A stretch of 34,830 nucleotides of DNA from a virus: IMG/VR virus record IMGVR_UViG_3300005731_000060, positions 1 through 34,830 of that record; one strand, written 5' to 3'. A program made the translations under genes and the position numbers. How positions within the stretch are numbered: the first letter of the stretch is position 1; the number at the start of each line of letters is the position of its first letter. The notes beneath the pieces were generated by a model. That model was not told where the DNA came from. It did not search any database and saw only the letters and a program-made list of their open reading frames with translations. This document shows positions 2,851 to 17,256 of the stretch, one piece after another.

Positions 2851-2851
2851 A

Positions 2852-5987: not shown

Positions 5988-6000
5988 GTGTTGTTGTCAA
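5972..6000 (-). promoter_or_regulatory. Leftward promoter of the replication operon
   Basis: Read on the minus strand, TTGACA (6000-5995) and TATGCT (5977-5972) are 17 bases apart, a near-consensus sigma70-type promoter. The predicted start is near 5965, about 22 bases before the HTH gene. Confidence 0.7.
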
Positions 6001-6042
6001 CGTGCAATCGCACAAAAGTGGATACCCACAAGATATTGTGTG

Positions 6043-6064
6043 TGACGCGAGCGAACCCGCGTCA
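6043..6064. repeat. Short perfect hairpin between early and replication operons
   Basis: TGACGCG and CGCGTCA form a 7-bp stem around an 8-base loop. It lies just downstream of the last small early gene, so it may terminate or stabilise that transcript, but no U-tract follows on either strand. The rest of 6001-6075 holds no credible gene. Confidence 0.35.
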
Positions 6065-6075
6065 TGAGTTGGTTT

Positions 6076-6189
6076 TCAGTTGTTGGGGCCGATCATTTGA
6101 TTTCCTCCATCTTGGCGCGGGTAGCGGCGACACTGACCGGACCCTTCCGGTTCGCCCTGCGTGTCTGGAACGCCGTAGATAATAGCCAT
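6076..6189 (-). CDS. Very small protein, 37 residues
   Basis: An ATG at 6189 overlaps the stop codon of the upstream gene (TGATG) and is preceded by a strong GGAGG site with a 7-base gap, which is the main reason to accept it. The peptide (MAIIYGVPDTQGEPEG..., then CRRYPRQDGG) is hydrophilic with one cysteine. Short peptides carrying a C-R-R/x-Y-P pattern are frequent at the ends of early operons in proteobacterial phages, but no function is known to me. Confidence 0.5.
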   Translation of the reverse strand: MAIIYGVPDTQGEPEGSGQCRRYPRQDGGNQMIGPNN

Positions 6190-7133
6190 CACACGTCCTC
6201 CATTGCTTTGCGGATAGCGGCGGGCACTTCACACAAGTCGTCTGGCACCATGGCGCTGGCAATCTTCGCCGCCAGTTCCATGCCATCACGGATGGCGTCG
6301 ACCTTGGGGGTGAGAGTGATGGCGGATTGGATGCGCTCGTCGTAGTCGGCTTGGGCTAAATCCATTGCTGATGAGAGGCACGGCACGTCTCTTGCATATT
6401 CGGCGTCACTTACAGGAGAGGACACATAAAAATTATCAGGCACTGATCGGTGACTTTTGACCTCCGCGAAGTATCCGAAATGTGTCGGTGCTCGCCAAAC
6501 ACATGTACTGATTTGCTCCCACACCAGCGGCTTGACCTCTGCCGCCATCTCAGGCTGTGCGGCTTCCAACTCGGAAAAGGCATCGCGAATAATGTCATGC
6601 GCCCTATCCGCTTGAATGCCATCGCTTGTATCTTCTGACGTCCATTTATATCCGACGCGCTCAATCAATGAACGAAGAACCGCCCAGCATTCCCCCTCAA
6701 ATTCCGTGCTTAATTTCTCTTGGTGGCGGCTGAACTCGTCGCGTTCATCTTCAAGCTCTGCCTCCAACTCGACAACGCGGGCGGATAGGGCGTCCCGTTC
6801 GGCGATGGTTTTGTTTAAACGCTTTTGCAGCCCTTCACCGTGTTCTCGACAGCGTTCCCACGCGGCTTTCCAATCGGTATCGTTCGGGTAAAAACTGCCG
6901 GTGCCCCAATCTTGAGAACTCAGCGCACCATCTTTAAAGATTCGGTCCTCGGTTAATTTAAGTTGGTCAATCATCCGCTGCCACGCTGTCTGCTCGCCAA
7001 TGAGGTCAGCTTGCATGACGGGCTGTTCAGGCGCGCAATCCACCACGGGCCAATCGGTGTCACCAGCACTGATGATGCCAGGACCCCAGCCGAGGAATGT
7101 AGCCGGTTCTTTGTCTTTGCTCGTATCAGTCAT
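6189..7133 (-). CDS. Coiled-coil early protein, 314 residues
   Basis: The ATG at 7133 follows GAGGG with an 8-base gap and overlaps the upstream gene by 8 bases. A central coiled coil at about residues 90-145 (KRLNKTIAERDALSARVVEL and on) separates two parts. The C-terminal third (PLVWEQIS..., then AQADYDERIQSAI) resembles a short domain common in alphaproteobacterial phage proteins of unknown function, in which a PLVW strand is followed by an AQADYExRI helix. It could be a multi-domain early protein that interacts with a host target. No catalytic motif is seen. Confidence 0.7.
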   Translation of the reverse strand: MTDTSKDKEPATFLGWGPGIISAGDTDWPVVDCAPEQPVMQADLIGEQTAWQRMIDQLKLTEDRIFKDGALSSQDWGTGSFYPNDTDWKAAWERCREHGEGLQKRLNKTIAERDALSARVVELEAELEDERDEFSRHQEKLSTEFEGECWAVLRSLIERVGYKWTSEDTSDGIQADRAHDIIRDAFSELEAAQPEMAAEVKPLVWEQISTCVWRAPTHFGYFAEVKSHRSVPDNFYVSSPVSDAEYARDVPCLSSAMDLAQADYDERIQSAITLTPKVDAIRDGMELAAKIASAMVPDDLCEVPAAIRKAMEDV

Positions 7134-7512
7134 CAAACTTACCCTCCGGTACATCAATGTCGATCTTGATGCAGGACATCCTATCGGACGACTGCAGCTT
7201 ATCAGCGAGGTCTCTGGTGTATATAGGTGCTGAGAATGTACCATCGGCATACACGTTCACATACCCCTCCACCTTCACCATGCGCGGGGCGTCAACTAGG
7301 TCGCACGGCGTCTGTTCGCCTTTCCTCCAAGCGCCAAGGGGGTCCCAAGTCCGAACAAGCCATTCTTCCTGTCTTTCATTCCAAATCGCACCGTGGATTG
7401 GGTACGCGCCTCCGGCGTCGTACGTGTAGATACGCGCCTTTTCCCCCTCGTCGGATTGCCAGTTGTGGCCTTCTTCTGCGTCTCTCGGGTGTGTGAATTT
7501 ACGTTTGGTCAT
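7126..7512 (-). CDS. Conserved hypothetical early protein, 128 residues
   Basis: The protein is mainly beta-strand with many aromatic residues (ARIYTYDAGGAYPIHGAIWN, then a DAPRMVKVEGYVNVYADG stretch and a C-terminal SCIKIDIDVPEG). This pattern resembles a small protein common in prophages of Rhizobiales and Rhodobacterales, in which a W-rich N-terminal part precedes a VNVYPDG segment. Function is unknown. Start at 7512 overlaps the preceding stop (ATGA), and its end overlaps the coiled-coil gene by 8 bases, so the row is translationally coupled. Confidence 0.7.
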   Translation of the reverse strand: MTKRKFTHPRDAEEGHNWQSDEGEKARIYTYDAGGAYPIHGAIWNERQEEWLVRTWDPLGAWRKGEQTPCDLVDAPRMVKVEGYVNVYADGTFSAPIYTRDLADKLQSSDRMSCIKIDIDVPEGKFDD

Positions 7513-7757
7513 TTTGCTAAAGCCCTTTCAACTTCTGCTTCAATGTATTGTGGAATACCACATGGTTGCATCCAATCGGGCACTTCGTCGGGGCCTGATA
7601 CGTGATAGAACAGGCACTCGTCTGTTACCGGCCTCGGGTGGAAAAGCACGCAGGAAAACCCAGCGTTCTCAAACGCAGCTGCTGGTGAGCCTTCGAACTT
7701 GTCATCATCCCAAAGGGAAATGCGATAATGACGGTTTGTCCGCTTAGGCTCAGTCAT
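7509..7757 (-). CDS. Hypothetical early protein, 82 residues
   Basis: I place the start at ATG 7757, which overlaps the upstream stop codon as ATGA; an in-frame ATG three codons earlier is possible. The protein has strands RHYRISLWDDDK and CVLFHPRPVTDECLFYHVSG and a C-terminal helix. No cysteine cluster, membrane segment or known motif is recognised. It is one of a run of overlapping early genes. Confidence 0.65.
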   Translation of the reverse strand: MTEPKRTNRHYRISLWDDDKFEGSPAAAFENAGFSCVLFHPRPVTDECLFYHVSGPDEVPDWMQPCGIPQYIEAEVERALAK

Positions 7758-7942
7758 TCCAACCACCCCAGCACTTCCTTGACACTGGCACGCAGTTCTG
7801 CGTTTGTGGCCAATGCGTCGGCCAAGTTGCCGTTGACGTCCTCGAACAACACTTCCAATGTGGCTGCCGCTGCATGTGGGCGGGTAGGATGAACCTGTCC
7901 CCCGACTTTGTAGGCTTCGACGCGCTCAAGCTTTAAAGGCAT
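7754..7942 (-). CDS. Hypothetical early protein, 62 residues
   Basis: The ATG at 7942 is preceded by GGAG with a 7-base gap and overlaps the upstream gene by 17 bases. The N-terminal 25 residues are basic (KLERVEAYKVGGQVHPTRPH); the rest is a predicted amphipathic helix pair (LADALATNAELRASVKEVL) that could pair as a coiled coil. No family is recognised. Confidence 0.6.
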   Translation of the reverse strand: MPLKLERVEAYKVGGQVHPTRPHAAAATLEVLFEDVNGNLADALATNAELRASVKEVLGWLE

Positions 7943-8165
7943 ATTTAATCTCCGTTTCTACGCAGCGAGGATCAAATGCCTCGCCTGCTGTTTCGTCAAG
8001 TAGTTCGTGTGGATGTTCGGTGAGCACCGTGAGGGAATGCCCCGTTGTGTATGTCACAACATGCCAAGGCGTTTCGACGTGCCCACACATCAGGGCCGAA
8101 TTGAGTACGTCAAGGTCGGTGTGTTTTTCCCGACCTGTGAACGTTACGGTTGCCAAGGCGCTCAT
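7926..8165 (-). CDS. Hypothetical early protein, 79 residues
   Basis: It starts at ATG 8165, three bases after the stop of the DUF2786 gene, using the G6 tract at the end of that gene as ribosome site. The protein is a predicted all-beta domain (ALATVTFTGREKHTDLDVL, then WHVVTYTTGHSLTVLTEH) with a short C-terminal helix. No motif is recognised. Confidence 0.65.
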   Translation of the reverse strand: MSALATVTFTGREKHTDLDVLNSALMCGHVETPWHVVTYTTGHSLTVLTEHPHELLDETAGEAFDPRCVETEIKYAFKA

Positions 8166-8167
8166 GA

Positions 8168-8845
8168 TTACCCCCCGATCCGTTTGACAGTTGACCCGCC
8201 CGTTTGACGTGCAAGGCTGACCTTGTTTGCAGCAGCCCGTGCTGTGCTGTTGGTCGACGAACTTGTTTTGCGCCCTTTTTCAAGGTTTGGGTAACGGTCT
8301 TGCACGTATGCATCCAACGCTGTGCCCATCGCCACCAATGCATTGCGCGTCTTGTCGTTGTGTTGTGCGGCGTTCTTCGCTTTGTCGCGTTCAACCAACA
8401 TTGCCGAAACACGATGGTTGAATGCGTTGGCGACACGTCGGATTGCAGCCTCGGGTTTCAGCCCCATATCAGATGCAGCCTTGCGTCCCTCAGCGCGAAT
8501 TTGTGCCGTCACGAATGGCAACATTGCTTCGAATGTCACGCGGGCTGATTCTGGCCCAAACACCTCGACTTCATACGTTTTGCGGTCAACGAAGTTTATC
8601 ACGCATTTGCAGCCATAATATTTGGCTAGGACGTTGGTCAAATGCTTTTTCCAGCTGGGCGCTGACGTTGTTTGACGCAAGCCCACCATGTGGCCAATTT
8701 CGTCATCCTCGTCCAAATCAATCATGCTGATTTGGTGCTTGGTCATCAAGGCTTGCGCTTTATCCAAGAACAGGGCCGCTTCGGCCTCATGATCTGATTG
8801 CGCTGCTTTGTCCAGGAGGGCTTTGATTTTTTCGTTCAGGGTCAT
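8168..8845 (-). CDS. DUF2786-domain protein, 225 residues
   Basis: Residues 1-40 (KIKALLDKAAQSDHEAEAAL, then a KAQALMTKHQIS helix) match the DUF2786 family, a helical domain common in phages and plasmids. A second domain at about 55-150 contains an SWKKHLTNVLAKYYGCKCV stretch as in the DUF7168-type partner. Its last 30 residues are basic and low in complexity (SSSTNSTARAAANK). The biochemical role is not established; the basic tail suggests nucleic-acid contact. It has its own predicted promoter and palindrome at 8867-8897 and an AAAGGA ribosome site 8 bases before the ATG. Confidence 0.8.
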   Translation of the reverse strand: MTLNEKIKALLDKAAQSDHEAEAALFLDKAQALMTKHQISMIDLDEDDEIGHMVGLRQTTSAPSWKKHLTNVLAKYYGCKCVINFVDRKTYEVEVFGPESARVTFEAMLPFVTAQIRAEGRKAASDMGLKPEAAIRRVANAFNHRVSAMLVERDKAKNAAQHNDKTRNALVAMGTALDAYVQDRYPNLEKGRKTSSSTNSTARAAANKVSLARQTGGSTVKRIGG

Positions 8846-8866
8846 TTTGTTTTCCTTTCGTTACAT

Positions 8867-8885
8867 TCACAATACACGATTGTGA
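8867..8885. promoter_or_regulatory. Perfect inverted repeat, possible operator
   Basis: TCACAAT-ACACG-ATTGTGA is a 7-5-7 perfect dyad in the 64-bp gap before the DUF2786 gene. It covers the -10 and part of the spacer of the predicted leftward promoter, so it could be a repressor site. Its sequence differs from the palindrome at 5971-5987. Confidence 0.5.
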
Positions 8886-8897
8886 GCAACGGCACAA
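8869..8897 (-). promoter_or_regulatory. Possible leftward promoter before the DUF2786 gene
   Basis: TTGTGC (8897-8892) and TATTGT (8874-8869) stand 17 bases apart on the minus strand. The -35 is imperfect, but the -10 is identical to those at 3287 and 10,951. Confidence 0.4.
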
Positions 8898-8909
8898 GCG
8901 AAAAGAGGA

Positions 8910-9251
8910 TCACTCAAGCTTCCCTTCGTAAACGCGGGAGATCAACCATTCTTTCATTTCGTCAAGCGTGGCGATTGCATTGATGCTGTCCACAAGTTGT
9001 TGTTGTTCGGTGTGTTGTTGTTCGGCCGCGCTGCGTTCTTCATCACATGAGGAGCAACAATCAATGCCCTGCTCGATCAAGCGGGGTGGCACTTTGTTGT
9101 CGCACCCATACGTTGAGCACGTTGGCAATGCCCGCATTCGTTCAGCGTACTCGCGCTGCTTGCGTTTGTATTCAGCAAGGTGTACCTCGCAGTATTGTTT
9201 ACCATGTGGCACAGCGGGTTCACGGCAATTGCTCAATTTACAACGTTTCAT
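8910..9251 (-). CDS. Double zinc-ribbon-like protein, 113 residues
   Basis: Two cysteine clusters suggest two zinc sites: C4-x4-C9...C21-x2-H24, and C45-x4-C50...C65/C66-x2-C69. Between them is a basic helix (EYKRKQREYAERMR), and after them an Asp/Gln-rich linker and a C-terminal helix. Proteins of this build often bind nucleic acids or other proteins; no specific family is recognised. Its ATG overlaps the stop of another Cys-rich gene (ATGA), so the two are probably made together. Confidence 0.65.
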   Translation of the reverse strand: MKRCKLSNCREPAVPHGKQYCEVHLAEYKRKQREYAERMRALPTCSTYGCDNKVPPRLIEQGIDCCSSCDEERSAAEQQHTEQQQLVDSINAIATLDEMKEWLISRVYEGKLE

Positions 9252-9499
9252 TTAACATCCTCCAAACAATTTGTGCAATAGCGTACCTTTGAATACAGCG
9301 CGGTATGCACGGGTTTTGCGCAGCATTCAGACAGCGACGCATTGTCACGCGCAACACGCGCACAATCCGGACAACGTTTGGCGTCGTGCATATCGACGTG
9401 CAACACGTCATTGAACGAAACGCCACAGTCGGAGCAACTGTTCAATTCAGGCAGGCGACACAACCAAGCATCGCCTATGTGGTCATGAGGGTCGTTCAT
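9248..9499 (-). CDS. Double zinc-ribbon-like protein, 83 residues
   Basis: The ATG at 9499 is chosen because AAAGG lies 7 bases upstream; longer versions would run through the small membrane gene before it. Eight cysteines form two likely zinc sites: C22-x2-C25 with C43-x2-C46, and C59/C60 with C75-x2-C78. The first resembles a DksA/TraR or treble-clef type finger with its CSDCG and RCPDC knuckles. It may bind RNA polymerase, DNA or another host protein; this is inference from the cysteine pattern. It is coupled by ATGA to the next Cys-rich gene. Confidence 0.65.
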   Translation of the reverse strand: MNDPHDHIGDAWLCRLPELNSCSDCGVSFNDVLHVDMHDAKRCPDCARVARDNASLSECCAKPVHTALYSKVRYCTNCLEDVK

Positions 9500-9510
9500 T
9501 GTATTACCTT

Positions 9511-9627
9511 TCAACCAAATAGTGCGAGCAATACCCACACAAGAATGCCCACGATTAACAGGGGCCAACGGATCGGGCGTTCGACGTGCTCGGTGTTGAT
9601 GCATGAGTAGTGGTGGCGTCGTTTCAT
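9511..9627 (-). CDS. Small membrane protein, 38 residues
   Basis: Start ATG at 9627 overlaps the stop of the upstream small membrane gene (ATGA). The N-terminal 20 residues are basic and polar (MKRRHHYSCINTEHVERPIR), and the C-terminal 18 form one clear membrane helix (WPLLIVGILVWVLLALFG). By the positive-inside rule the N-terminus should stay in the cytoplasm. It ends 12 bases before the next gene. Function is unknown; holin-like, toxin-like or superinfection roles are all possible for such peptides. Confidence 0.6.
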   Translation of the reverse strand: MKRRHHYSCINTEHVERPIRWPLLIVGILVWVLLALFG

Positions 9628-9758
9628 TTCAGGTGCCCCCACTCGACCTTGACGTCTTCGTCCCATTGCACCTTAGCAGGCACATCAAATGTTGTCAAGG
9701 TGTATGCCAGCATGAAAGCAGCAGTCGATGCCATTATCATGAATTGAAAAGGTGTCAT
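9624..9758 (-). CDS. Small membrane protein, 44 residues
   Basis: The ATG at 9758 overlaps the stop of the upstream gene (ATGA). Residues 4-22 (FQFMIMASTAAFMLAYTL) form a probable membrane helix or uncleaved signal anchor; the last 20 residues are acidic and soluble (PAKVQWDEDVKVEWGHLK). It is coupled at its end to a second membrane peptide with the opposite layout, so the pair may work together. No family is recognised. Confidence 0.55.
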   Translation of the reverse strand: MTPFQFMIMASTAAFMLAYTLTTFDVPAKVQWDEDVKVEWGHLK

Positions 9759-9994
9759 GTTGTCGCCCGTTGCATCATAGCCCAGACGCCGGTCAACATG
9801 CCGTTGATGTATGCGTCCATCTCGCGGTTGTTCATGCGGTTGGTAACGTGGTTGCGCGTGCCCTCATATTCGAGTTTGTACCCATAGTATCGGTTGTAGT
9901 CGAGCGCGTATGTGGGTAGCCCCTCTTTTTCAAGGTTGCGGTTGAGGGTGGCCAAGCGGTGTTCGATTGTTGTGCGTGTGATGACTTCGGTCAT
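9755..9994 (-). CDS. Hypothetical early protein, 79 residues
   Basis: The start at ATG 9994 follows GAGG with a 9-base gap, one base after the upstream stop. The sequence (TRTTIEHRLATLNRNLEKEG, LDYNRYYGYKLEY, then a NNREMDAYINGMLTGV helix) resembles a small phage family in which an N-terminal helix is followed by a YGGYxL-type strand and a final REL..L.G helix. Such proteins are common in early regions of many phages and have no known function. Confidence 0.65.
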   Translation of the reverse strand: MTEVITRTTIEHRLATLNRNLEKEGLPTYALDYNRYYGYKLEYEGTRNHVTNRMNNREMDAYINGMLTGVWAMMQRATT

Positions 9995-9995
9995 T

Positions 9996-10211
9996 TTAGT
10001 GTACCTCGATTGAATGAATTTTGCGTTGCATGGCATGCGTTGTCAGTGAGTATTTGGCCCCTTCACAATCGCCGATCAATTCGATAACATCGTAAACGGT
10101 GTGTTCCCCGTAATATTTACCGATGCGTGACAGGACGCGCACAATTACAGGGTCGCCGTTGTCCTCGCCAAAATAGGCGAAAACAATGTCATTGGGTTTC
10201 ACATCAATCAT
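9996..10211 (-). CDS. Hypothetical early protein, 71 residues
   Basis: I choose ATG 10211, which overlaps the upstream stop (ATGA) and has AGGA 8 bases before it; ATG 10220 sits directly on the ribosome site and is less likely. The N-terminal part is a predicted small beta barrel (VKPNDIVFAYFGEDNGDPVI) of the kind seen in SH3-like early proteins, ending in KIHSIEVH. No family is recognised. Confidence 0.6.
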   Translation of the reverse strand: MIDVKPNDIVFAYFGEDNGDPVIVRVLSRIGKYYGEHTVYDVIELIGDCEGAKYSLTTHAMQRKIHSIEVH

Positions 10212-10402
10212 ACGAAACATTCCTTTTGAAAGTGGCCTGACAGGGCATGCGTTGTGGGAACGTGGAACGGGTGAACCGTTCCATTTATCGTTACGGTGTA
10301 GTGGTCAGCACGTTTCGTTGAATTGAGCGATGCAGCGAGGTCGAACCAAAATGCACATTTGGTATTGACAACGTGTTGGATAAGTTCGTCGTTGGTCAGC
10401 AT
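10208..10402 (-). CDS. Hypothetical early protein, 64 residues
   Basis: The ATG at 10402 follows a G5A ribosome site with a 7-base gap and overlaps the upstream gene by 7 bases. The protein has an N-terminal helix (TNDELIQHVVNTKCAFWFDL) and a beta hairpin (HYTVTINGTVHPFHVP). No known motif is seen. Confidence 0.6.
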   Translation of the reverse strand: MLTNDELIQHVVNTKCAFWFDLAASLNSTKRADHYTVTINGTVHPFHVPTTHALSGHFQKECFV

Positions 10403-10659
10403 GACAATTCCCCCGCATAGTAGCGTTGCATTTGGTCGATGTATGCGGCAACGCTTTCGTGCGTTTCGATGCAATCGTCGTCGTTCATGTTTTCGGTAAT
10501 CGAGCCGTCAGCGTTCAGCGTCAGCTTGATATGCATGTAATAGTAACCATGGATCGACATTTCAACGGTGCAGTCGTCAACGTCAACACGGGCACGGTAC
10601 AAATGTTCGTTGTTGATGTTCACAGCGAGCATGGCGGTCAGGGTTTGTGCATCAGTCAC
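10396..10659 (-). CDS. Hypothetical early protein, 87 residues
   Basis: The protein is acidic, with strands HLYRARVDVDDCTVEMSIHG and YYYMHIKLTLNADGSITEN and a terminal helix (ESVAAYIDQMQRYYAG). Its ATG at 10659 lies three bases after the upstream stop. It reads like a small beta-sheet early protein; no family is recognised. Confidence 0.65.
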   Translation of the reverse strand: MTDAQTLTAMLAVNINNEHLYRARVDVDDCTVEMSIHGYYYMHIKLTLNADGSITENMNDDDCIETHESVAAYIDQMQRYYAGELSC

Positions 10660-10662
10660 GGT

Positions 10663-10914
10663 TTATACCCCCTTATACGTGTCGTTGATTGCAGCACAAT
10701 ATTCGAGCACGTAGGTGTACGTGTTTACATTGCCATCAATGATTTCAACAATCGAGCCAACGTTGCCCACAACGATCATAACGTTGGTCACGTAGCATTC
10801 GTGAATTTCAAACGTCATAATGCCCGTTGTTGTGTTCATGTTGACGTTTTGAATATCGGCATCATGTTTCAGGTGCGTTTTGATGATTTTCATCATAATT
10901 TGCAATTCGGTCAT
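10663..10914 (-). CDS. First early gene of the leftward operon, hypothetical, 83 residues
   Basis: The ATG at 10914 follows AAGGA with a 9-base gap and lies about 30 bases after the predicted start of the leftward promoter at 10,951-10,979. The protein begins with a helix (ELQIMMKIIKTHLKH) followed by repeated beta strands (GIMTFEIHECYVTNVMIVVG, VEIIDGNVNTYTYVL). It has no recognised domain. As the first gene behind the main leftward promoter it is probably among the earliest proteins made after infection. Confidence 0.65.
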   Translation of the reverse strand: MTELQIMMKIIKTHLKHDADIQNVNMNTTTGIMTFEIHECYVTNVMIVVGNVGSIVEIIDGNVNTYTYVLEYCAAINDTYKGV

Positions 10915-10950
10915 GTTGTCAATCCTTGTGTTTTCGTATTCGTTATAATG

Positions 10951-10979
10951 ACAATAGCATTTGTGCGATACATCGTCAA
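10951..10979 (-). promoter_or_regulatory. Main leftward early promoter
   Basis: TTGACG (10979-10974) and TATTGT (10956-10951) are 17 bases apart on the minus strand. Three copies of CAAAAAGGTG lie just upstream, the nearest running straight into the -35 (GGTGTTGACG). A near-palindrome, TCGTTATAATGA (10940-10951), covers the predicted start. Confidence 0.7.
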
Positions 10980-11024
10980 CACCTTTTTGCACCTTTTTGT
11001 GCTTTTATTTTTTTCACCTTTTTG
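10980..11024. repeat. Three CACCTTTTTG direct repeats between divergent promoters
   Basis: Identical 10-mers start at 10980, 10990 and 11015. The first two are exactly one helical turn apart. The stretch between the second and third is T-rich. The array lies between the -35 boxes of the two divergent promoters and could be an activator or repressor site or an UP-like element. Confidence 0.6.
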
Positions 11025-11035
11025 CAAATTAGGTG

Positions 11036-11064
11036 TTGACCCCCTCAATGGTACAGGTTATATT
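11036..11064 (+). promoter_or_regulatory. Rightward promoter for the gene at 11,100
   Basis: TTGACC (11036-11041) and TATATT (11059-11064) have a 17-base spacer. The -35 is embedded in ATTAGGTGTTGAC, which recurs exactly at 12,482-12,494. Confidence 0.7.
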
Positions 11065-11099
11065 GAATGTATTGAAACGATAATCAAAGGAACGAACAA

Positions 11100-11438
11100 A
11101 TGACCATCAACAAAAATTCATATGCAAACCTCAAAGGCGCCAAAGCCGCTGCAAAACGTCAAAACATCGAAAACCCTCGCTTCGACGAAACCCCAGACGG
11201 ACGCGTCACACTCACCGACAATTCGCGCCCCCTGTACAATCACGAAGCACGCGTCAAATCGACCATCAAAGGGGCCGTTGCGATTGTGTGGGGACTTGCC
11301 GACACGATGCACAAACAAGGCGCGAAACGTGGGGAAATCGTCGCAGCCGCAATTGAACAGGGCGTGTCACCCAACACCGCGAAAACACAATATCAATACT
11401 GGCGCAAAGCCTCGGGGCTCGTCAAGGCGCGTTCGTAA
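11100..11438 (+). CDS. Small HTH-like protein, 112 residues
   Basis: The ATG at 11100 has AAAGGA 8 bases upstream and its own promoter. Residues 1-45 are polar and basic; residues 55-105 look helical, with a possible helix-turn-helix (RGEIVAAAIEQGVSPNTAKT, then QYQYWRKASG). The A-I-x-x-G-V/I-x-x-N-T-A-x-T-Q-Y-x-x-W pattern is one I associate with small phage proteins of unknown function, perhaps DNA-binding. It is a single-gene rightward unit closed by a hairpin at 11,475, opposite in direction to the early operon, so it could be a switch regulator or an origin-binding protein. Those roles are inferred. Confidence 0.7.
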   Translation: MTINKNSYANLKGAKAAAKRQNIENPRFDETPDGRVTLTDNSRPLYNHEARVKSTIKGAVAIVWGLADTMHKQGAKRGEIVAAAIEQGVSPNTAKTQYQYWRKASGLVKARS

Positions 11439-11474
11439 CGTTGTTAGGTCGACGTATCCACAATGATGCTGTGA

Positions 11475-11502
11475 AAGGGGGCGATCAATGCAATGCCCCC
11501 TT
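11475..11502 (+). terminator. Hairpin after the HTH-like gene
   Basis: AAGGGGGC (11475-11482) pairs perfectly with GCCCCCTT (11495-11502) around a 12-base loop. There is no U-tract after it, so termination may be partial. The stem arms are identical to those of the terminator at 12,061-12,080. Confidence 0.5.
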
Positions 11503-11603
11503 GACGTTGTGTGATGTTGTGCGAATGTGCCGTCTTACGTGTTTAATCGATTTGATTTTCCATGTAATGTCAAGTGTGCCTAAAAATGTACTTGTTTTGT
11601 ATA

Positions 11604-11650
11604 ATTGTATTGAATGAACCACGCGTTTGTGTTATTGTATTAAATGTGCC
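11604..11650. repeat. Two direct 17-bp repeats 30 bp apart
   Basis: ATTGTATTGAATGAACC (11604-11620) and ATTGTATTAAATGTGCC (11634-11650) agree at 14 of 17 positions. Their core resembles the TATATTGAAT block found at the two flanking promoters. Confidence 0.5.
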
Positions 11651-11814
11651 CCCGATTTTTTATGTAAATTCAAAGAAAATTTAGCGCGAACAGAAAATTT
11701 GAAAAAAATCTTACAGGAAAATAAAATTGCCTCACAAACCCTTGATAAATAACAATAATATAAAAAAATACCTATTTATATTGTATGTATAATGCATGTA
11801 GGATTTCGTAAGGG

Positions 11815-11861
11815 AAAATGTGCCGGTATTTTAACCCGGGTTCACACAGGTGGCACATTTT
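11815..11861. repeat. Nested dyad: 10-bp inverted repeat around a central palindrome
   Basis: AAAATGTGCC (11815-11824) and GGCACATTTT (11852-11861) are perfect inverted copies. The palindrome AACCCGGGTT (11833-11842) lies within half a base of their common centre. The whole 47-bp element is two-fold symmetric in layout. Confidence 0.6.
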
Positions 11862-11868
11862 GCACCAT

Positions 11869-11963
11869 GATTTTCCATGTAAGACCTTACGGGTATATCG
11901 TTGGGTCGCATTTTCCACGTAAGGGTACACATTCAAATTTGTGCATGGTCTTACATGGAAATT
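11869..11963. repeat. CCAYGTAA boxes with a 15-bp inverted repeat
   Basis: TTTCCATGTAAGACC occurs forward at 11872-11886 and inverted at 11947-11961, with a related box, TTTTCCACGTAAGG, at 11911-11924 between them. A fourth copy of the core (GATTTTCCATGTAA) lies at 11554-11567. The spacing suggests binding sites for a phage or host protein. Confidence 0.6.
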
Positions 11964-12057
11964 ACGTGCAATTTACATCTCGTGCGACAATGTGGCACGT
12001 TTGCGTTGGGTAAACGCAGAGCGTGGTTGTGCGTTGATCGTTGTGTGGGTACACGTG

Positions 12058-12080
12058 AAAAAGGGGGCCGAAGCCCCCTT
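12058..12080 (-). terminator. Strong terminator of the gene at 12,084-12,368
   Basis: On the minus strand AAGGGGGC-TTCG-GCCCCCTT is an 8-bp GC-rich stem with a stable UUCG loop, and the second arm runs into a T5 tract. It begins four bases after the stop codon. It could also act weakly on rightward transcription because GTTTT follows on that strand. Confidence 0.85.
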
Positions 12081-12083
12081 GTT

Positions 12084-12368
12084 TTAAATGAAGTCGCAGT
12101 ACATGCCGTCAACACAATTCGTTGCGATGCGGGGGTTTGCGTCGTTGTTGAAATTCCCACAGTATGCAAACATATCAGCTGAATTGAACGCCTCGTCTAC
12201 GTCGTACTTGTTCGATTGCAGGGCGACGAACGTTTCACCTACATACACGTGTACGTTTTCATCGTCCCTTGCGTAGACGAGCGCATCCTGTATTGTGGTT
12301 GCGTTGCGATGCACAATCATGGTGCACGTGTGCGTTGCGCATATCGCGCGAATTTCATCATGTGTCAT
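12084..12368 (-). CDS. Single-gene unit, hypothetical protein, 94 residues
   Basis: The gene has everything a separate unit needs: a promoter at 12,404-12,432, AGGA 6 bases before the ATG, and a strong UUCG terminator. The protein is acidic, with an N-terminal helix (THDEIRAICATHTCTMIVHR) and a middle beta segment (DENVHVYVGETFVALQ), then a cysteine-containing Asn/Asp-rich C-terminal half (YCGNFNNDANPRIATNC). No family is recognised. It points into the repeat region from the right, mirroring the gene at 11,100. A regulatory, host-takeover or accessory role is possible. Confidence 0.65.
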   Translation of the reverse strand: MTHDEIRAICATHTCTMIVHRNATTIQDALVYARDDENVHVYVGETFVALQSNKYDVDEAFNSADMFAYCGNFNNDANPRIATNCVDGMYCDFI

Positions 12369-12403
12369 AATGTGTCCTATGTGCGTATCGTTTCGTTGTA
12401 TTC

Positions 12404-12432
12404 AATATACCATGTGCCCGTTGTGATGTAAA
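12404..12432 (-). promoter_or_regulatory. Leftward promoter of the gene at 12,084-12,368
   Basis: TTTACA (12432-12427) and TATATT (12409-12404) are 17 bases apart on the minus strand. The region from the -10 to about +12 nearly repeats that of the rightward promoter at 11,059. Confidence 0.65.
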
Positions 12433-12489
12433 CAATAAAGGACGAACGATTGTTGCGTAGTTGGATGTAAATTCGTAACCTATTAGGTG

Positions 12490-12518
12490 TTGACGTGATG
12501 GGTCAAACATGATACAAT
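12490..12518 (+). promoter_or_regulatory. First rightward promoter of the late region
   Basis: TTGACG (12490-12495) and TACAAT (12513-12518) have a 17-base spacer. The -35 lies in a second exact copy of ATTAGGTGTTGAC. Transcripts from here would begin with the G-rich leader at 12,530-12,565. Confidence 0.65.
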
Positions 12519-12529
12519 TTATTGGTAGG

Positions 12530-12565
12530 CCCCCCTATGGGTGGGGGGTGGGGGGATGCCGTGGG
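12530..12565 (+). promoter_or_regulatory. C-tract/G-tract leader: hairpin or G-quadruplex candidate
   Basis: A C6 run (12530-12535) is followed by G-runs of 3, 6, 6 and 3 at 12539, 12543, 12550 and 12563. The C6 can pair with either G6, or the four G-runs with loops T, T and seven bases fit the usual G-quadruplex pattern. The element lies within a few bases of the predicted transcript start, ahead of the late operon. Confidence 0.55.
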
Positions 12566-12633
12566 CGTGGAGTCTCAAAATACACATGGGCGACTGAATA
12601 TCCATTTTGTATGATTATACATGCAGGTAAGTG

Positions 12634-12662
12634 TTGACAGGGAGAGCGTGATCGCATATAGT
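12634..12662 (+). promoter_or_regulatory. Second, near-consensus rightward promoter of the late region
   Basis: TTGACA (12634-12639) and TATAGT (12657-12662) are separated by 17 bases. The predicted start is near 12669, about 35 bases before the first late gene. A short dyad TGTAT-GATT-ATACA (12608-12621) precedes it. Apart from this and the elements above, 12,369-12,704 holds no gene longer than a 13-codon frame. Confidence 0.75.
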
Positions 12663-12704
12663 ATTGTGTATACGCATTTCACAACGTAACGACCGGAGCA
12701 CATA

Positions 12705-13151
12705 ATGAGCCTTATAGGAAAGACCCTAGCCGAGATCCTGCCGCAATCGAATTATGAGGCACGACCGCGACGTCCAGATGCTCCAGAGCCTCGCAAGCAT
12801 CAGACATTCGATTACAGCCATATCACTGTGGAAACCGCATTGGCTGGACAGTTGTTGCGAGCATTTTTGGACCAGTATGATCCAGAACGTGGCACAAAGA
12901 AAATGTATAAGACGCCGACAGTCAAATGTGCCTTGCTTGTATCGATTGGCAATCGTGGGCAGGACAAATGGTTCGGTCCATCTTACATTTATGACGACCT
13001 CTGGCCGGACAGCAATATGCGGCCAGAGAATTACCGTGGACGCCTGTCGCATTATGTCACGCGCTTGCGCCCGTTTCTGTATTCGCAAGGATACGCCCTC
13101 AAAGGTTCCATGTCTCATGGACGCAAACTTGTAAAGGTTACATCACAATGA
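12705..13151 (+). CDS. Winged-helix-like protein, first gene of the late operon
   Basis: The 148-residue protein starts at ATG 12705 after a GGAG site. The first 35 residues are Pro/Arg-rich and probably disordered. The last 60 resemble an OmpR/PhoB-like winged helix: a segment SYIYDDLWPDSNM, a likely recognition helix YRGRLSHYVTRLRPFLYSQG, and a C-terminal hairpin YALKGSMSHGRKLVKV. Its position directly behind two promoters makes it a candidate late-transcription regulator that acts on its own or other promoters. Fold assignment is by pattern and could be wrong. Confidence 0.65.
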   Translation: MSLIGKTLAEILPQSNYEARPRRPDAPEPRKHQTFDYSHITVETALAGQLLRAFLDQYDPERGTKKMYKTPTVKCALLVSIGNRGQDKWFGPSYIYDDLWPDSNMRPENYRGRLSHYVTRLRPFLYSQGYALKGSMSHGRKLVKVTSQ

Positions 13152-13315
13152 CATTCGAAACAATTATCACCTATGTGACGGCGGTATTGGTGTTCATCGC
13201 CCATATCGACGTTATCCGCAAGGCCCGAAAGGCCGAGCAGTACGGGTCAATTGCAATCGTGTATGCCATCGTGCTTCACGCATTGGGCATGATTGTAAAC
13301 GGAGGGGCGTTGTAA
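13148..13315 (+). CDS. Small two-helix membrane protein, 55 residues
   Basis: The ATG overlaps the stop of the preceding gene (ATGA). Two hydrophobic helices, about residues 4-20 (TIITYVTAVLVFIAHI) and 33-50 (IAIVYAIVLHALGMIV), flank a basic loop (RKARKAEQYG). This layout fits small holins, antiholins and other phage inner-membrane proteins. The clear holin of this phage appears to be at 15,949, so this one may be an accessory or a superinfection-immunity protein. It ends overlapping the next start (TAATG). Confidence 0.6.
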   Translation: MTFETIITYVTAVLVFIAHIDVIRKARKAEQYGSIAIVYAIVLHALGMIVNGGAL

Positions 13316-13539
13316 TGTTTACCCTTATCGTCACAGCCTGCCTCAACATTCCATTGCCTGCGGACGTGTCACCGTGCGCGTCAACGAACCCCATTGTGGT
13401 CAACAATCACGAAGAATGCAAACTCAGGTACGAGATCTTCCGTCATGATTACGTCGAAGACATCGTTTTGCAAGGCAATTTGACCCTTGATCAACTCAAC
13501 ACATTTTACACCTGCTTTCCGAATGGGGTGACGTCATGA
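13315..13539 (+). CDS. Hypothetical small protein, 74 residues
   Basis: The start overlaps the upstream stop (TAATG). The first 12 residues are hydrophobic (MFTLIVTACLNI) and four cysteines follow at wide spacing, so an exported or membrane-linked, disulfide-bearing protein is possible, though the N-terminus lacks the basic residues of a normal signal peptide. The rest is helical and acidic. No family is recognised. Confidence 0.55.
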   Translation: MFTLIVTACLNIPLPADVSPCASTNPIVVNNHEECKLRYEIFRHDYVEDIVLQGNLTLDQLNTFYTCFPNGVTS

Positions 13540-14000
13540 CACCTGAACAGTTGGCCAAGAGTGGCTCGGAATCGGCGCATCAGAAAGCTTTGTTCTGTCA
13601 AGCGGCGTTGCACTACAATCAATATCCCGAACTCAAATGGATGCATGCTATCCCAAATGGTGGGATGCGGTCTGCGCGGACAGGGGCCAATATGAAGGCC
13701 GAGGGCGCGAGAGCTGGGGTACTAGACATTTTCCTTCCTGTTAGCATTACCACCCCTATCGGTGCAACGACATCTGGCCTTTACATTGAGATGAAGAAGC
13801 CAGGATTCGAGAATCGCAAGAACGGCGGTATGTCAGACAAGCAGGTCGAGTTCTCACGTCATGCCATGTTTTTCGGGTATCGTGTTCGCATTTGTTACAC
13901 GTGGGAACAGGCTTGGGAACAGATCATTGGATACCTCGAAAACGTTTCCGAGGAACAGCGCGGTGCATATCACACATGGATGGAGGCCCAAAATGGTTAA
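13536..14000 (+). CDS. VRR-NUC-type nuclease
   Basis: The 154-residue protein shows the VRR-NUC form of the PD-(D/E)XK fold. It has an N-terminal helix with a glutamate (SESAHQKAL), then HAIPNGGMRS (37-46), a catalytic aspartate in GVLDIFLP (D64) and a YIEMKKP strand with E85-x-K87. A DKQVEF segment follows. Such phage enzymes are thought to act as Holliday-junction or flap nucleases in recombination or in clearing DNA before packaging. The length is typical of the stand-alone phage form. The start overlaps the upstream stop (ATGA). Confidence 0.85.
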   Translation: MTPEQLAKSGSESAHQKALFCQAALHYNQYPELKWMHAIPNGGMRSARTGANMKAEGARAGVLDIFLPVSITTPIGATTSGLYIEMKKPGFENRKNGGMSDKQVEFSRHAMFFGYRVRICYTWEQAWEQIIGYLENVSEEQRGAYHTWMEAQNG

Positions 14001-14250
14001 AGTCAATGGCGTCGGCGTCCTGTTCAGACGTTTCTATGCGATCCGGAAGGATACATACGAACAACCCGGCAAACAAATGTATCTGCATCTGCGTGGATGT
14101 GGACACACCTCAATTCCAGAGTACGCATGGTGCGCACGTGAGTTCCAATGGAAGAACCTTGTGAAGAAGCATCGTTTGAACCCTGACGATTACGTGTTGG
14201 TACGCGCCAACGTTATCAAGCCCACCCTCGACCGGAAGGACATGCTTTGA
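13993..14250 (+). CDS. Hypothetical protein, 85 residues
   Basis: The ATG at 13993 overlaps the last codons of the nuclease gene. The protein is basic, with a beta start (VKVNGVGVLFRRFYAI), a HLRGCGHTSIPEYAWC segment and a helix FQWKNLVKKHRLNPDDYVLV. The C/H residues (C36, H38, C47) could hold a metal but are few. No family is recognised. It is coupled to the nuclease, which suggests a shared DNA-processing role. Confidence 0.6.
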   Translation: MVKVNGVGVLFRRFYAIRKDTYEQPGKQMYLHLRGCGHTSIPEYAWCAREFQWKNLVKKHRLNPDDYVLVRANVIKPTLDRKDML

Positions 14251-14360
14251 CCATTCCCCTTATCATGTTGGCGTTTCCTGTCGTCATGCTCATCTTGGTC
14301 GTTGTGGCCTTGCTCGTTTCCTCATACATCACTGGTTTCATAGAAGGACTGCTCAAATGA
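14247..14360 (+). CDS. Single-helix membrane protein, 37 residues (TTG start)
   Basis: TTG at 14247 is preceded by AAGGA with a 6-base gap and overlaps the upstream stop; the in-frame ATG at 14265 has no ribosome site. Nearly the whole peptide is one membrane segment (LAFPVVMLILVVVALLVSSY) followed by a short acidic/basic tail (GFIEGLLK). The end overlaps the next start (ATGA). Function is unknown; it is one of several tiny membrane proteins in this block. Confidence 0.5.
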   Translation: MTIPLIMLAFPVVMLILVVVALLVSSYITGFIEGLLK

Positions 14361-14890
14361 CCCAGCTTTCACCGCAAACAATCAGACGGTTGTCACCGCC
14401 CATGATTATGCCCTTCATCGAACGCACGGTGCACGAACAAACCGGCATGTCCGGTGGCCTGTCATGTGCCGGATACGATGTCCACATGGGGGACAAAATC
14501 CAAGGGTTGCCGGCGTTCAAACGACAACCGACAATGGCATACGATTACCATGGCAACAAAGTATGGATGCTGCCAAAACGGACAGGCTGTTTGGCTGTTA
14601 CTAAAGAGAAGTTCACGCTTCCACCGGCTGTGTCGATGCAGTATTTCAATAAGTCCACACTGGCCCGTCAGTTCATCAATGCTTGTGCAACGCTGGGCGA
14701 GCCAGGATGGGAAGGGTATTTGACCCTTGAGCTTTACAACCAGACAGACGATCCGGTTTTTTTGTATCCAGGCCAACCCATCGGGCAAGTGGTCTTCCAT
14801 TTGCTTGACGAGCCGTCGGAAACGCCGTATGCTGGGAAGTATCAAGGGCAGGGTTCCGAGCCTGTCGCAGCCAAGCGGGAAGAATCATGA
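14357..14890 (+). CDS. dcd: dCTP deaminase/dUTPase-family protein
   Basis: The 177-residue protein has the Dcd trimer-family motifs: GLSCAGYDVHMG (34-45), the KSTLAR segment (99-104) with its phosphate-binding Ser/Arg, PGW (116-118), the catalytic glutamate in TLELYN (E125), and a PGQPIGQVVF barrel strand (138-147). A KYQGQ motif sits near the end. It probably deaminates dCTP to dUTP, or hydrolyses dUTP, in the cytoplasm, supplying the dTMP pathway for phage DNA synthesis. Which of the two reactions occurs cannot be decided from these motifs. It starts with an ATGA overlap. Confidence 0.85.
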   Translation: MTQLSPQTIRRLSPPMIMPFIERTVHEQTGMSGGLSCAGYDVHMGDKIQGLPAFKRQPTMAYDYHGNKVWMLPKRTGCLAVTKEKFTLPPAVSMQYFNKSTLARQFINACATLGEPGWEGYLTLELYNQTDDPVFLYPGQPIGQVVFHLLDEPSETPYAGKYQGQGSEPVAAKREES

Positions 14891-15078
14891 TTAATCGTTT
14901 TGGGCCATACGGCATGAATTACGTTCAACCAGAAGAGTTCGAAGGCAAGACTCAGGAAGAGATTCGCCAAATGAACTTGGAACGGCTGGACGACAATATC
15001 CACAACGCAAAGATCGGCTTGGCAATCAGCCTTTGCACGACCATTGTGTGGATAACCCTTGTGGTGTTGTTCGGATGA
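14887..15078 (+). CDS. C-terminally anchored membrane protein, 63 residues
   Basis: The first 40 residues are polar and helical (EEFEGKTQEEIRQMNLERLD), and the last 20 form one membrane helix (IGLAISLCTTIVWITLVVLFG). The start overlaps the upstream stop (ATGA). Tail-anchored peptides like this are frequent beside phage lysis genes, but no family is recognised. Confidence 0.6.
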   Translation: MINRFGPYGMNYVQPEEFEGKTQEEIRQMNLERLDDNIHNAKIGLAISLCTTIVWITLVVLFG

Positions 15079-15413
15079 TTGATTACGTCAAGTTGTTCGG
15101 GCCTGCTGGCGACTTGCGCGAATATATGCGCTCCCACCCAAACGGTGGGGGTGACTGGGTTGACGGGTTCTGCGATGGCATTATTCGTCAACTCGAAACC
15201 GGCAATGCGATTACCGAGCTCCTGACTGAGTTCAATTGCAAAGCTGTAAACCTTGGGATCAATTCTCAGGGGCAACCAATCGTTTCTATTCGTGAACGGG
15301 TAGATGACGGTTTCAAATGTTACGCGGCTGATTCTTTCAATGACGCCGTGGACATGTACTGGTCTGAAAAGGCCCTGATTATGAAAGCTAAGGAAGAAGA
15401 TGGAACATCATAA
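15075..15413 (+). CDS. Hypothetical protein, 112 residues
   Basis: The ATG at 15075 overlaps the upstream stop (ATGA). The protein is acidic; the N-terminal half is helical (DYVKLFGPAGDLREYMRSH, then WVDGFCDGIIRQLETGNAIT) and the second half contains beta strands (AVNLGINSQGQPIVSIRERV) and a final helix. No known domain is seen. It overlaps the endolysin gene by 14 bases. Confidence 0.6.
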   Translation: MIDYVKLFGPAGDLREYMRSHPNGGGDWVDGFCDGIIRQLETGNAITELLTEFNCKAVNLGINSQGQPIVSIRERVDDGFKCYAADSFNDAVDMYWSEKALIMKAKEEDGTS

Positions 15414-15879
15414 ATTTGGTAAGCACTCTCTCATCGAGATGGAATACACCAACGAAGGTCTGGTTGAATGGACAGAACGCGCCCTGTTCTATTCGCGCGT
15501 TGACTTCGGCGTGTTCGATGGGCTGCGCACCGCGGTCGAACAGAACAAGCACTATCGTCGCGGTCAATCACAGATCGACGGGTACGAACGCAAGTCGAAA
15601 CACCAGACACAAGACGACGGTACGAGCCACGCTGTTGATCTCGTTCCGTGGGTCGATGGCAAATGGACATGGCGCTGGGGTGCGATCTATCAAATCGCTA
15701 ACGCAGGCATTCGTGCATCGAAAGAACTGGACATTGATATCCGCTGGGGCGGCTGTTGGCAAAATATTAATCAACTGCCGTTGCTCGGCGCGTATGATGC
15801 GCAACGCGCATACGTGGAACGCAAGCTGAAACAGGGCCGTCGTGCATTCACAGACGGGCCGCATTTCGAACTGCTTTAA
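15400..15879 (+). CDS. Endolysin, M15-family peptidoglycan peptidase
   Basis: The 159-residue protein matches the M15C (T5 endolysin-like) L-alanyl-D-glutamate peptidases. An RVDFGVFDGLRT strand region leads to QSQIDGYERKSKHQ. The metal ligands are probably H68, D80 (in TSHAVDLVP) and H155 (in GPHFEL). W-rich WRWGAIYQIA and IRWGGCWQNI segments are typical. It has no signal peptide, so it should wait in the cytoplasm for the holin at 15,949 to open the membrane, then cut the cell-wall peptide. AAGGA lies 5 bases before the ATG. Confidence 0.9.
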   Translation: MEHHKFGKHSLIEMEYTNEGLVEWTERALFYSRVDFGVFDGLRTAVEQNKHYRRGQSQIDGYERKSKHQTQDDGTSHAVDLVPWVDGKWTWRWGAIYQIANAGIRASKELDIDIRWGGCWQNINQLPLLGAYDAQRAYVERKLKQGRRAFTDGPHFELL

Positions 15880-15885
15880 AACCGC

Positions 15886-15915
15886 TTGACAGCGCGTGTC
15901 TGTGGGGCGTATCAA
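15886..15915 (+). promoter_or_regulatory. Possible rightward promoter before the lysis cassette
   Basis: TTGACA (15886-15891) and TATCAA (15910-15915) have an 18-base spacer. The -10 and part of the spacer lie inside the inverted repeat at 15,899-15,931. It would boost holin and packaging genes. Confidence 0.45.
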
Positions 15916-15931
15916 TAAGGTGCCCCACAGA
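15899..15931. terminator. 10-bp perfect inverted repeat after the endolysin gene
   Basis: TCTGTGGGGC and GCCCCACAGA pair perfectly around a 13-base loop, 20 bases after the endolysin stop codon. No U-tract follows. On transcripts from upstream it would fold as a strong hairpin (partial terminator or mRNA end protector); on DNA it could be an operator over the promoter at 15,886. Confidence 0.5.
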
Positions 15932-15948
15932 TAACGCGGAGATCCAAG

Positions 15949-16353
15949 GTGCCTGTCGATAACCCCGAGCTAATTGCAATCATTAAAGGATGGCCGTACT
16001 CCCTCTTGGCAGGTGTCGGAGGACTTCTGGGGCATATGCTCCGCAGTATCGACGATGGCCGGAAGATGGATATCAAACGCGCTTTGATCGAAGCATTTGC
16101 CGCCGGATTTGTGGGCATCATGGTTTACCTCCTAAGTTCAGCAATGGGTGTCGGTCCTACGTGGGCGGCATTCTTGTCTGGGGTGTTGGGCTGGGCAGGT
16201 GCCCCCGCAAGTATGTTGATCCTAGAACGAGTAGTCAAAAAGAAATTAGGAGTCGACGCCCCCGAAACACAAGGAAAGCCACATGCTTCTCACCCTGCTC
16301 TCAAAACCCCAACGCCTGATCCGAGTGATCCTAATTCTGGGAATTTTGGTTAG
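15949..16353 (+). CDS. Holin (GTG start)
   Basis: The GTG at 15949 follows GGAG with a 9-base gap. The 134-residue protein has about three membrane segments: near residues 17-32 (YSLLAGVGGLLGHML), 47-63 (AFAAGFVGIMVYLLSSA) and 72-95 (AAFLSGVLGWAGAPASMLIL). A basic stretch (VVKKKLG) and a Pro/Ser-rich cytoplasmic tail follow. This fits LydA-like phage holins, and the gene lies between the endolysin and the spanins. It would form the membrane lesion that releases the endolysin. Confidence 0.8.
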   Translation: MPVDNPELIAIIKGWPYSLLAGVGGLLGHMLRSIDDGRKMDIKRALIEAFAAGFVGIMVYLLSSAMGVGPTWAAFLSGVLGWAGAPASMLILERVVKKKLGVDAPETQGKPHASHPALKTPTPDPSDPNSGNFG

Positions 16354-16591
16354 TATCCTTCTATACAGTACAGAACGCAGCTCGAAGGTTGTTCTGAAAC
16401 AGCAGGTCGAAGTGTTACAAGCATCCCGTGATGCCGACGCAATTTTGTTGACCGCATCCAAGACGGCACAACGTCAACTGGAAGAGCGGGCACAAGAGCT
16501 GGAACAAGCATATGAGGAACTGTCCAATGAAGCGCGCGATTATCTTAACATGGACGTCCCTGATGATATTAACCAGTTGTTCAGGGACTGA
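16283..16591 (+). CDS. Rz: Rz-like inner-membrane spanin
   Basis: This 102-residue protein starts inside the holin gene at ATG 16283 after AAGGA. Residues 12-28 (LIRVILILGILVSILLY) are a membrane anchor. The rest is a long coiled coil (KQQVEVLQASRDADAILLTA, QRQLEERAQELEQAYEELSN) reaching into the periplasm. That is the layout of i-spanins. The final 65 bases overlap the start of the Rz1-like gene in another frame, as in lambda-type cassettes. The pair should fuse inner and outer membranes in the last lysis step, which implies a Gram-negative host. Confidence 0.8.
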   Translation: MLLTLLSKPQRLIRVILILGILVSILLYSTERSSKVVLKQQVEVLQASRDADAILLTASKTAQRQLEERAQELEQAYEELSNEARDYLNMDVPDDINQLFRD

Positions 16592-16778
16592 GTATGTTGC
16601 GTTAAAGCCACAACAAGAACATTTGGTTAGGGTCGAAAAGATCGAGCGGCCCCCGTTCAAGAAGACAGCGGACATAGTCGATTACGCCCATGCCCTAGAA
16701 GGTGCATACGAAGCATTGCGGGTTACCCACAACGGATTGATTGATTGGATATTGACAACCTCGCAGAGCCTCCGTTAA
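16527..16778 (+). CDS. Rz1: Rz1-like outer-membrane lipoprotein spanin
   Basis: The ATG at 16527 is chosen because AGGA lies 8 bases upstream; another in-frame ATG lies 15 bases earlier. A short signal (MKRAIILTWTSLMI) ends in a lipobox, L15-T16-S17-C18, so the mature protein of about 66 residues should be lipid-anchored in the outer membrane. It contains a proline pair (RPPFKK) but fewer prolines than lambda Rz1. The gene begins within the Rz-like gene in a different frame, which supports the call. Confidence 0.8.
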   Translation: MKRAIILTWTSLMILTSCSGTEYVALKPQQEHLVRVEKIERPPFKKTADIVDYAHALEGAYEALRVTHNGLIDWILTTSQSLR

Positions 16779-16780
16779 CG
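16752..16780 (+). promoter_or_regulatory. Weak possible promoter before the terminase genes
   Basis: TTGACA (16752-16757) is followed after 17 bases by TTAACG, a poor -10. It lies at the end of the Rz1-like gene, 27 bases before the small terminase gene. Confidence 0.25.
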
Positions 16781-16806
16781 TTTACAAAACAACCACAGGC
16801 ACAGTA

Positions 16807-17256
16807 ATGATCGACACGGACGAAATCTACAGCAACTATGCGAACCGGTTCTTGACAATCGGTAACGCAACGCAGGCTGCGTTGGACGTCGGTGTACCGA
16901 AAGATACGGTCAACGAGTTCCTACGCATTGCCAAAGATCATCCGGACGTAATGGATATCATTGCCGCTGATGAGCAGGATATGCCCGATTTCAACAATCC
17001 GGAGTCGGTAAAACGTTTCATTCTCAAGCAGTTGTTGCGCGAATCCCAATTCAAGGGACAAGGTGCACAACAGGCCGCACGTATTGCTGCGCTCAAGGCG
17101 ATTGGCGAGTTGACGGGCATCGAGCCTCCCAAGAAGATCGACATTAACCAAGCTGCACAAGGCGGCATGATGGTGATCCCCGTAATGGACGCCACAATGT
17201 GGGAACAATCGGCTGAGTTGATGCAATCAGAATTGAAGAAGAACGCTCGTGAGTAA
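16807..17256 (+). CDS. terS: Terminase small subunit
   Basis: The 149-residue protein has an N-terminal helix-turn-helix-like region at residues 5-45 (FLTIGNATQAALDVGVPKDT), a central helical oligomerisation part (SVKRFILKQLLRESQFKGQG, AARIAALKAIGELTG) and a flexible C-terminal end. This is the usual layout of small terminases that bind the packaging site and load the large subunit. The gene lies directly before and overlaps the large subunit gene. The family is deduced from layout and context rather than a strict motif. Confidence 0.8.
   Translation: MIDTDEIYSNYANRFLTIGNATQAALDVGVPKDTVNEFLRIAKDHPDVMDIIAADEQDMPDFNNPESVKRFILKQLLRESQFKGQGAQQAARIAALKAIGELTGIEPPKKIDINQAAQGGMMVIPVMDATMWEQSAELMQSELKKNARE

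Follow-up and report, generated by a model that had tools for sequence, protein, structure and literature searches.

A gene-free, AT-rich slot with repeated boxes at the early/late junction of a marine phage genome as a candidate replication origin

A gene-free locus between the early and late genes of an uncharacterised marine phage is, on balance, probably a theta-type replication origin. The locus holds the AT-richest DNA of the contig and an array of short, degenerate boxes. The corresponding slot in two relatives is likewise AT-rich, carries box arrays of different sequence and lies at the minimum of the cumulative GC skew. We propose that the phage primase-helicase is the initiator that acts on these boxes.

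The window (the whole stretch analysed) is a linear viral contig, 34,830 bases long, which we treated as a fragment of the genome of a marine bacterial virus. Its early genes run leftward and include those for a Sak4-like annealing protein and the primase-helicase, and its late genes run rightward from about 12,705, with the large terminase at 17,249. Searches of viral contigs for close relatives with the protein encoded at 11,100, the protein encoded at 12,705 or the primase alone gave no matches; relatives were better reached with the terminase and with alignments of two proteins, the primase and the one encoded at 13,536-14,000. The closest record is Sulfitobacter phage M39 (49,844 bp; 58% identity in the primase and 82% in the terminase), followed by the IMG/VR contig G001 (50,494 bp; 56% and 78%), and both were treated as near-complete. 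M39 has an exact 127 bp repeat at its termini (L082 1-127 and 49718-49844), which is typical of a circular assembly and looks like the assembler's overlap of a circular map, although the record was deposited as linear and complete. RNase H-like early genes (Pfam RVT_3/RNase_H) occur in M39 (L082 12580-13041, minus strand) and G001 (L105 2940-3452, plus strand), and none was recognised in the window. Rfam searches found no RNA family and ARAGORN found no tRNA.

The locus and the genes that border it are as follows.

11439-12083, no strand: gene-free locus, proposed replication origin (core), delimited by the gap between genes, the AT-richest windows and the equivalent slot in relatives
11581-11793, no strand: AT-rich stretch at the GC minimum of the whole contig, candidate DNA unwinding element
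11100-11438, plus strand: early gene for a conserved small protein of 112 aa, C-terminal half helix-turn-helix-like (judged by eye only)
12084-12368, minus strand: small leftward gene, 94 aa, with only a weak PHROG match (E 0.008)

Two genes thus converge on gene-free DNA, as originally predicted, and the 645 bp between them form the longest gap between plausible genes in a hand-made gene list covering positions 1-17,256. The predicted AT-rich stretch was also borne out. Specifically, the AT-richest 100 bp (11,694-11,793, 19% GC), 200 bp (11,581-11,780, 25.5% GC) and 600 bp (11,381-11,980) of the entire contig all fall here. Initiation through DnaA was considered and rejected because the locus contains no strict DnaA box; a single 8/9 match lies at 11,454.

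Homologues of the 112 aa protein are 58% identical in M39 and 56% identical in G001; PHROG returned only weak matches of unknown function and the PDB no match. Relative to the late genes, the strand of this gene in the window (11100-11438) is opposite to that in M39 (L082 13744-14073) and G001 (L101 4119-4466), suggesting a local inversion or transposition beside the locus. The gene at 12,084-12,368 lacks a counterpart in both relatives, which have one continuous noncoding stretch there. A defence-protein search with both flanking genes gave no matches. The functional unit probably extends rightward to about 12,600 and encloses this intruding gene.

The original prediction described many repeated boxes within the locus. 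This wording was too strong, since repeats of exact words are not clearly above those in local shuffles, but an array of similar short boxes does exceed chance. The degenerate box GATTTTCCATGTA occurs in five copies with at most two mismatches (11,554, 11,654, 11,869, 11,909 and 11,952), a count reached in 0 of 200 local shuffles, for which the maximum was 4. A fitted motif, TTTTCCAYGTAAG, identifies ten sites between 11,534 and 11,973, several of them weak, from a fit that had no shuffle control of its own. Seven sites are listed here.

11534-11546, minus strand: box 1, TTAAACACGTAAG, fitted motif (13.4 bits); M39 has its ACGTAAGACGG core as well, at about 16508
11556-11568, plus strand: box 2, TTTTCCATGTAAT, fitted motif and mismatch count
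11656-11668, plus strand: box 3, TTTTTTATGTAAA, fitted motif and mismatch count
11710-11722, minus strand: box 4, ATTTTCCTGTAAG, fitted motif
11871-11883, plus strand: box 5, TTTTCCATGTAAG, the best copy, with a perfect 15 bp inverted partner at 11947-11961
11911-11923, plus strand: box 6, TTTTCCACGTAAG, fitted motif and mismatch count
11950-11962, minus strand: box 7, ATTTCCATGTAAG, fitted motif and mismatch count

The density of boxes in the window is modest, and the relatives lend independent support to an origin. The equivalent noncoding stretch spans 16,170-17,132 in M39 and 49,499-50,494 in G001, with mainly leftward early genes on one side and rightward late genes on the other; barring one or two small junction genes, this division holds in all three genomes. 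The AT-richest windows of the M39 and G001 genomes lie at or beside the slot. Each slot also contains a box array, with 8 copies of ATTTATCCGTAAT in M39 and 12-15 copies of TAACGAATA in G001, neither of which was equalled in 60 local shuffles. Matches to the fitted motifs scoring at least 9 bits are concentrated inside the locus, which holds 10 of 13 in the window genome, 9 of 16 in M39 and 13 of 16 in G001. Written in one direction, the fitted motifs of the three genomes (TTTTCCAYGTAAG, TTATCCGTAAT and TTATTCGTTA) look related by eye. A comparison of relatives for conservation of the boxes therefore gives a divided answer: slot, AT-richness and arrays are kept, and the box sequence differs by phage. 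Judged from these sequences, the position of the locus is shared among relatives while its boxes diverge.

These observations bear on the simplest alternative, that the region is an ordinary spacer in which small accessory genes with terminators sit between the gene blocks, the AT-rich DNA is filler and the repeats are due to chance. The modest repeats of the window and the absence of the 12,084-12,368 gene from this position in M39 and G001 would suit such a spacer. We nevertheless consider it very improbable, given that both relatives have the same slot, which is extremely AT-rich and carries significant box arrays.

GC skew agrees with an origin at this slot in the two near-complete genomes. 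The cumulative skew of M39 is lowest at 15,916 and highest at 35,026; that of G001 is lowest at 49,313 and highest at 20,574. Both minima thus lie about 0.3 kb or less from the locus, and the maxima lie about 19-22 kb to its right. The window, which is a fragment, has its minimum at 9,552, about 2 kb from the locus, such that the skew change expected from the original prediction is found at the slot in the relatives and displaced from it in the window. Because gene direction switches at the skew minimum, transcription could explain part of the skew. A regression of skew by codon position was set aside as confounded, since the automatic gene set contains antisense ORFs and the terminus was picked from the data.

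The original prediction further held that two hairpins with the same stem arms fence the locus.

11475-11502, plus strand: hairpin AAGGGGGC-12 nt-GCCCCCTT located 3' of the 11,100 gene and, from its RNA fold, a probable weak terminator
12061-12080, minus strand: bidirectional intrinsic terminator from its fold z-scores, with a stem of 8, a tetraloop and U5 on the leftward transcript

The two hairpins indeed have identical arms, AAGGGGGC/GCCCCCTT, and their loops are 12 and 4 nt, respectively. AAGGGGGC is absent elsewhere in the window, where perfect 8 bp GC-rich stems occur at only two other places. The left hairpin folds well (-17.6 kcal/mol for 11470-11520, z -2.9 against shuffles) and is followed by no U-tract, so that the fence is only half shown. 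The hairpin at 12,061-12,080 combines a CUUCGG loop with U5 for the leftward gene and UGUUUU for the rightward direction, with z-scores against shuffles of -3.1 on the minus strand and -3.6 on the plus strand. It is the only convincing intrinsic terminator of the pair, and closes the right side of the locus in both directions.

A wider idea, that converging units keep the locus free of passing transcription, finds no support as a general principle. M39 has a converging gene on the left and none on the right, and the left neighbour in G001 (L101:5258-5455, minus strand) points away. Because the 12,084-12,368 gene lacks a counterpart and the direction of the left neighbour differs, the arrangement of two converging units is not conserved. 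Any insulation of this kind is peculiar to the window phage.

To the right of the locus lie two elements that the relatives share.

12490-12518, plus strand: putative rightward (late) promoter, TTGACG-17-TACAAT
12530-12600, plus strand: conserved G-run element CCCCCCTATGGGTGGGGGGTGGGGGG...TACACATGGGCGACT, located 3' of the late promoter and aligned to M39 16865-16940 and to the beginning of G001

M39 (about 16760) and G001 (L101, about 6364-6396) have promoter-like sites in the corresponding position that share a GTRA...GTATTGACA block, and the upstream block is similar in all three genomes. The G-run element, which is one of the contig's two G4-type motifs, is of the form GGGTGGGGGGTGGGGGG...TACACATGGGCGACT and finishes with TACACATGGGCGACT or a similar end in the window (12530-12600), M39 (L082 16865-16940) and G001 (L102 1-75), and the G001 assembly breaks inside it. 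In each of the three phages, a recurrent motif around TATATTGAATGTATTGAAACG that resembles an early promoter lies ahead of several small early genes (window 11051-11079 and 12395-12420; L082 14432-14460; L101 at about 4630 and 5490). A 17-mer, GCTGTAACAATAYGTGA, is common to M39 (L082, about 16734) and G001 (L101, about 6341) ahead of the late promoter. It was dropped as evidence because its 16 IMG/VR matches are close to the chance estimate for a collection of this size; it also occurs in other phages (L214, L215, L216, L220 and L223), several times shortly 5' of an ATG.

The promoter is pertinent to the possibility that the boxes are operators, bound by a transcription regulator such as the 11,100-11,438 protein that times the early-to-late switch, and that the locus is a regulatory hub and not an origin. 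A putative late promoter follows the locus in all three relatives, and a small, conserved and possibly helix-turn-helix-type gene adjoins it in the window and lies 1-2 kb away in M39 and G001. However, the arrays span several hundred base pairs around the AT-richest DNA instead of marking one or two promoter sites, and operators do not predict the skew minimum of M39 and G001. In more distant phages (L015, L029, L063 and G003) the arrays are found behind the primase-helicase gene. We regard operators as unlikely, but they are the main reason why our confidence in an origin is moderate.

The G-run element raises two other proposals. One is a packaging signal (pac or cos), with the terminase recognising either the G-run element at about 12,540 or the hairpins. 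Conservation of the element in three relatives and the end of the G001 contig within it speak for this proposal. Yet the G001 end is a poly-G run suggestive of a break in sequencing, the M39 ends, with their apparent circular-map overlap, are elsewhere, the terminase genes are 4 kb away, and packaging leaves the boxes and the AT-rich stretch unexplained. We give this proposal very little credence. The other is a dual-mode origin, in which the protein-bound boxes would act together with an RNA that starts at the conserved rightward promoter (12,490-12,518) and hybridises over the G-run at 12,530-12,600; an RNase H homologue resembling those of M39 and G001 would trim this RNA and DNA synthesis would start there. 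This scheme, likened to the mitochondrial light-strand promoter or ColE1 but placed in a tailed phage with a primase-helicase of its own, seems to us very unlikely.

For the protein-initiated origin that we favour, the candidate initiator and the arrays found next to its homologues are given below.

3312-5696, minus strand: primase-helicase, candidate initiator (PHROG 3022 DNA primase, E 7e-106; DUF3987)
L015: array 3' of the primase-helicase gene, AAACATTAAACA, 8 copies
L029: array 3' of the primase-helicase gene, GTGTTATATAGC, 5 copies
L063: array 3' of the primase-helicase gene, TAAAGTATATTA, 7 copies
G002: array 3' of the primase-helicase gene, GGGGATAGGGGG, 7 copies
G003: array 3' of the primase-helicase gene, AGCGGAGGTACC, 5 copies

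These arrays come from a survey of eight more distant phages, found via the terminase or the primase, in which 12-mers were counted with at most two mismatches and compared with 60 shuffles. In five of the eight (0/60 shuffles each), the homologous primase-helicase gene is followed immediately 3' by an iteron array; the other three (G005, G008 and L106) have none at this position. This placement links the arrays to the primase-helicase. The window genome and M39 have no array 3' of the gene; their arrays are at the early/late junction instead.

The N-terminus of the primase-helicase matches solved primases (7ola, 6a9w and 6k9a). A full-length model was poor (pLDDT 51) and unfit for structure search, but the C-terminal ~90 aa gave a winged-helix-like model (pLDDT 77). 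A Foldseek search of this domain against the PDB yielded no significant match (best E 0.086), and realignment of the model to PDB structures returned mostly winged-helix domains (VIA Z up to 8.9), a common pattern that proves no function. The modelled winged helix and the precedent of SaPI Rep/Cch2 (see below) are our reasons for proposing that this protein binds the boxes, and its identity as the initiator is a guess, given the poor full-length model.

From this anatomy we infer the following course of events. The primase-helicase (3,312-5,696) would bind the TTTTCCAYGTAAG boxes via its C-terminal winged-helix domain and melt the adjacent AT-rich stretch at 11,581-11,793. It would then load itself as the helicase and prime DNA synthesis, and forks would depart both ways into the early and late blocks. 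The prediction of an origin is therefore upheld by the slot, AT-richness, arrays and skew minima of the relatives and by the arrays beside the primase gene, and is tempered by the sparse boxes of the window itself. If correct, it provides a testable origin for an uncharacterised phage group related to a marine Sulfitobacter phage. It would also supply a rule for finding origins, namely an AT-rich gap with a lineage-specific iteron, located either where the replication and late modules meet or immediately 3' of the primase-helicase gene. A constant slot with changing iterons would make initiator-origin specificity readable from sequence across many phages.

A slot that stays AT-rich and gene-free while its boxes change has precedents in other phages and in mobile elements. 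The origins of Ceduovirus (lactococcal c2/bIL67/923) are noncoding and lie between early and late blocks; several unrelated sequence types of them fill the same slot in related phages and support plasmid replication (PMC7150918). Our locus resembles these in layout, being an ORF-free noncoding stretch that separates divergently transcribed early and late blocks. Ceduovirus origins, however, are flanked by the PE1/PE2 promoters, are thought to be driven by a noncoding transcript and need no phage proteins to support plasmids, whereas here only promoter-like sites were seen, and initiation by a bound protein is suggested by the iteron-like boxes and the primase-helicase.

In SaPI Rep and SCCmec Cch2, a C-terminal domain recognises iterons that lie immediately downstream of the helicase gene itself (PMC7581432). 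L015, L029, L063, G002 and G003 share this placement of the array, in contrast to the window phage and M39, whose arrays are several kilobases from the gene at the early/late junction. The sequence match to 7ola covers the N-terminal primase domain only.

Iteron plasmid origins (RK2, R6K and F) combine repeated binding boxes with an adjacent AT-rich element for unwinding (PMC4980987), and the window locus similarly pairs boxes beyond chance with an adjacent AT-rich stretch predicted to unwind. Plasmid iterons are typically 17-22 bp and are bound by a Rep of another family, whereas the window boxes are about 13 bp, degenerate, present in both orientations, irregularly spaced and unaccompanied by strict DnaA boxes. 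Among phages, the origins of ICP1 were placed by coverage peaks and skew, and its satellite PLE has a demonstrated origin that is a noncoding repeat region with iterons (PMC7145576). By analogy with these systems, the window locus fits as an additional candidate iteron-type origin.
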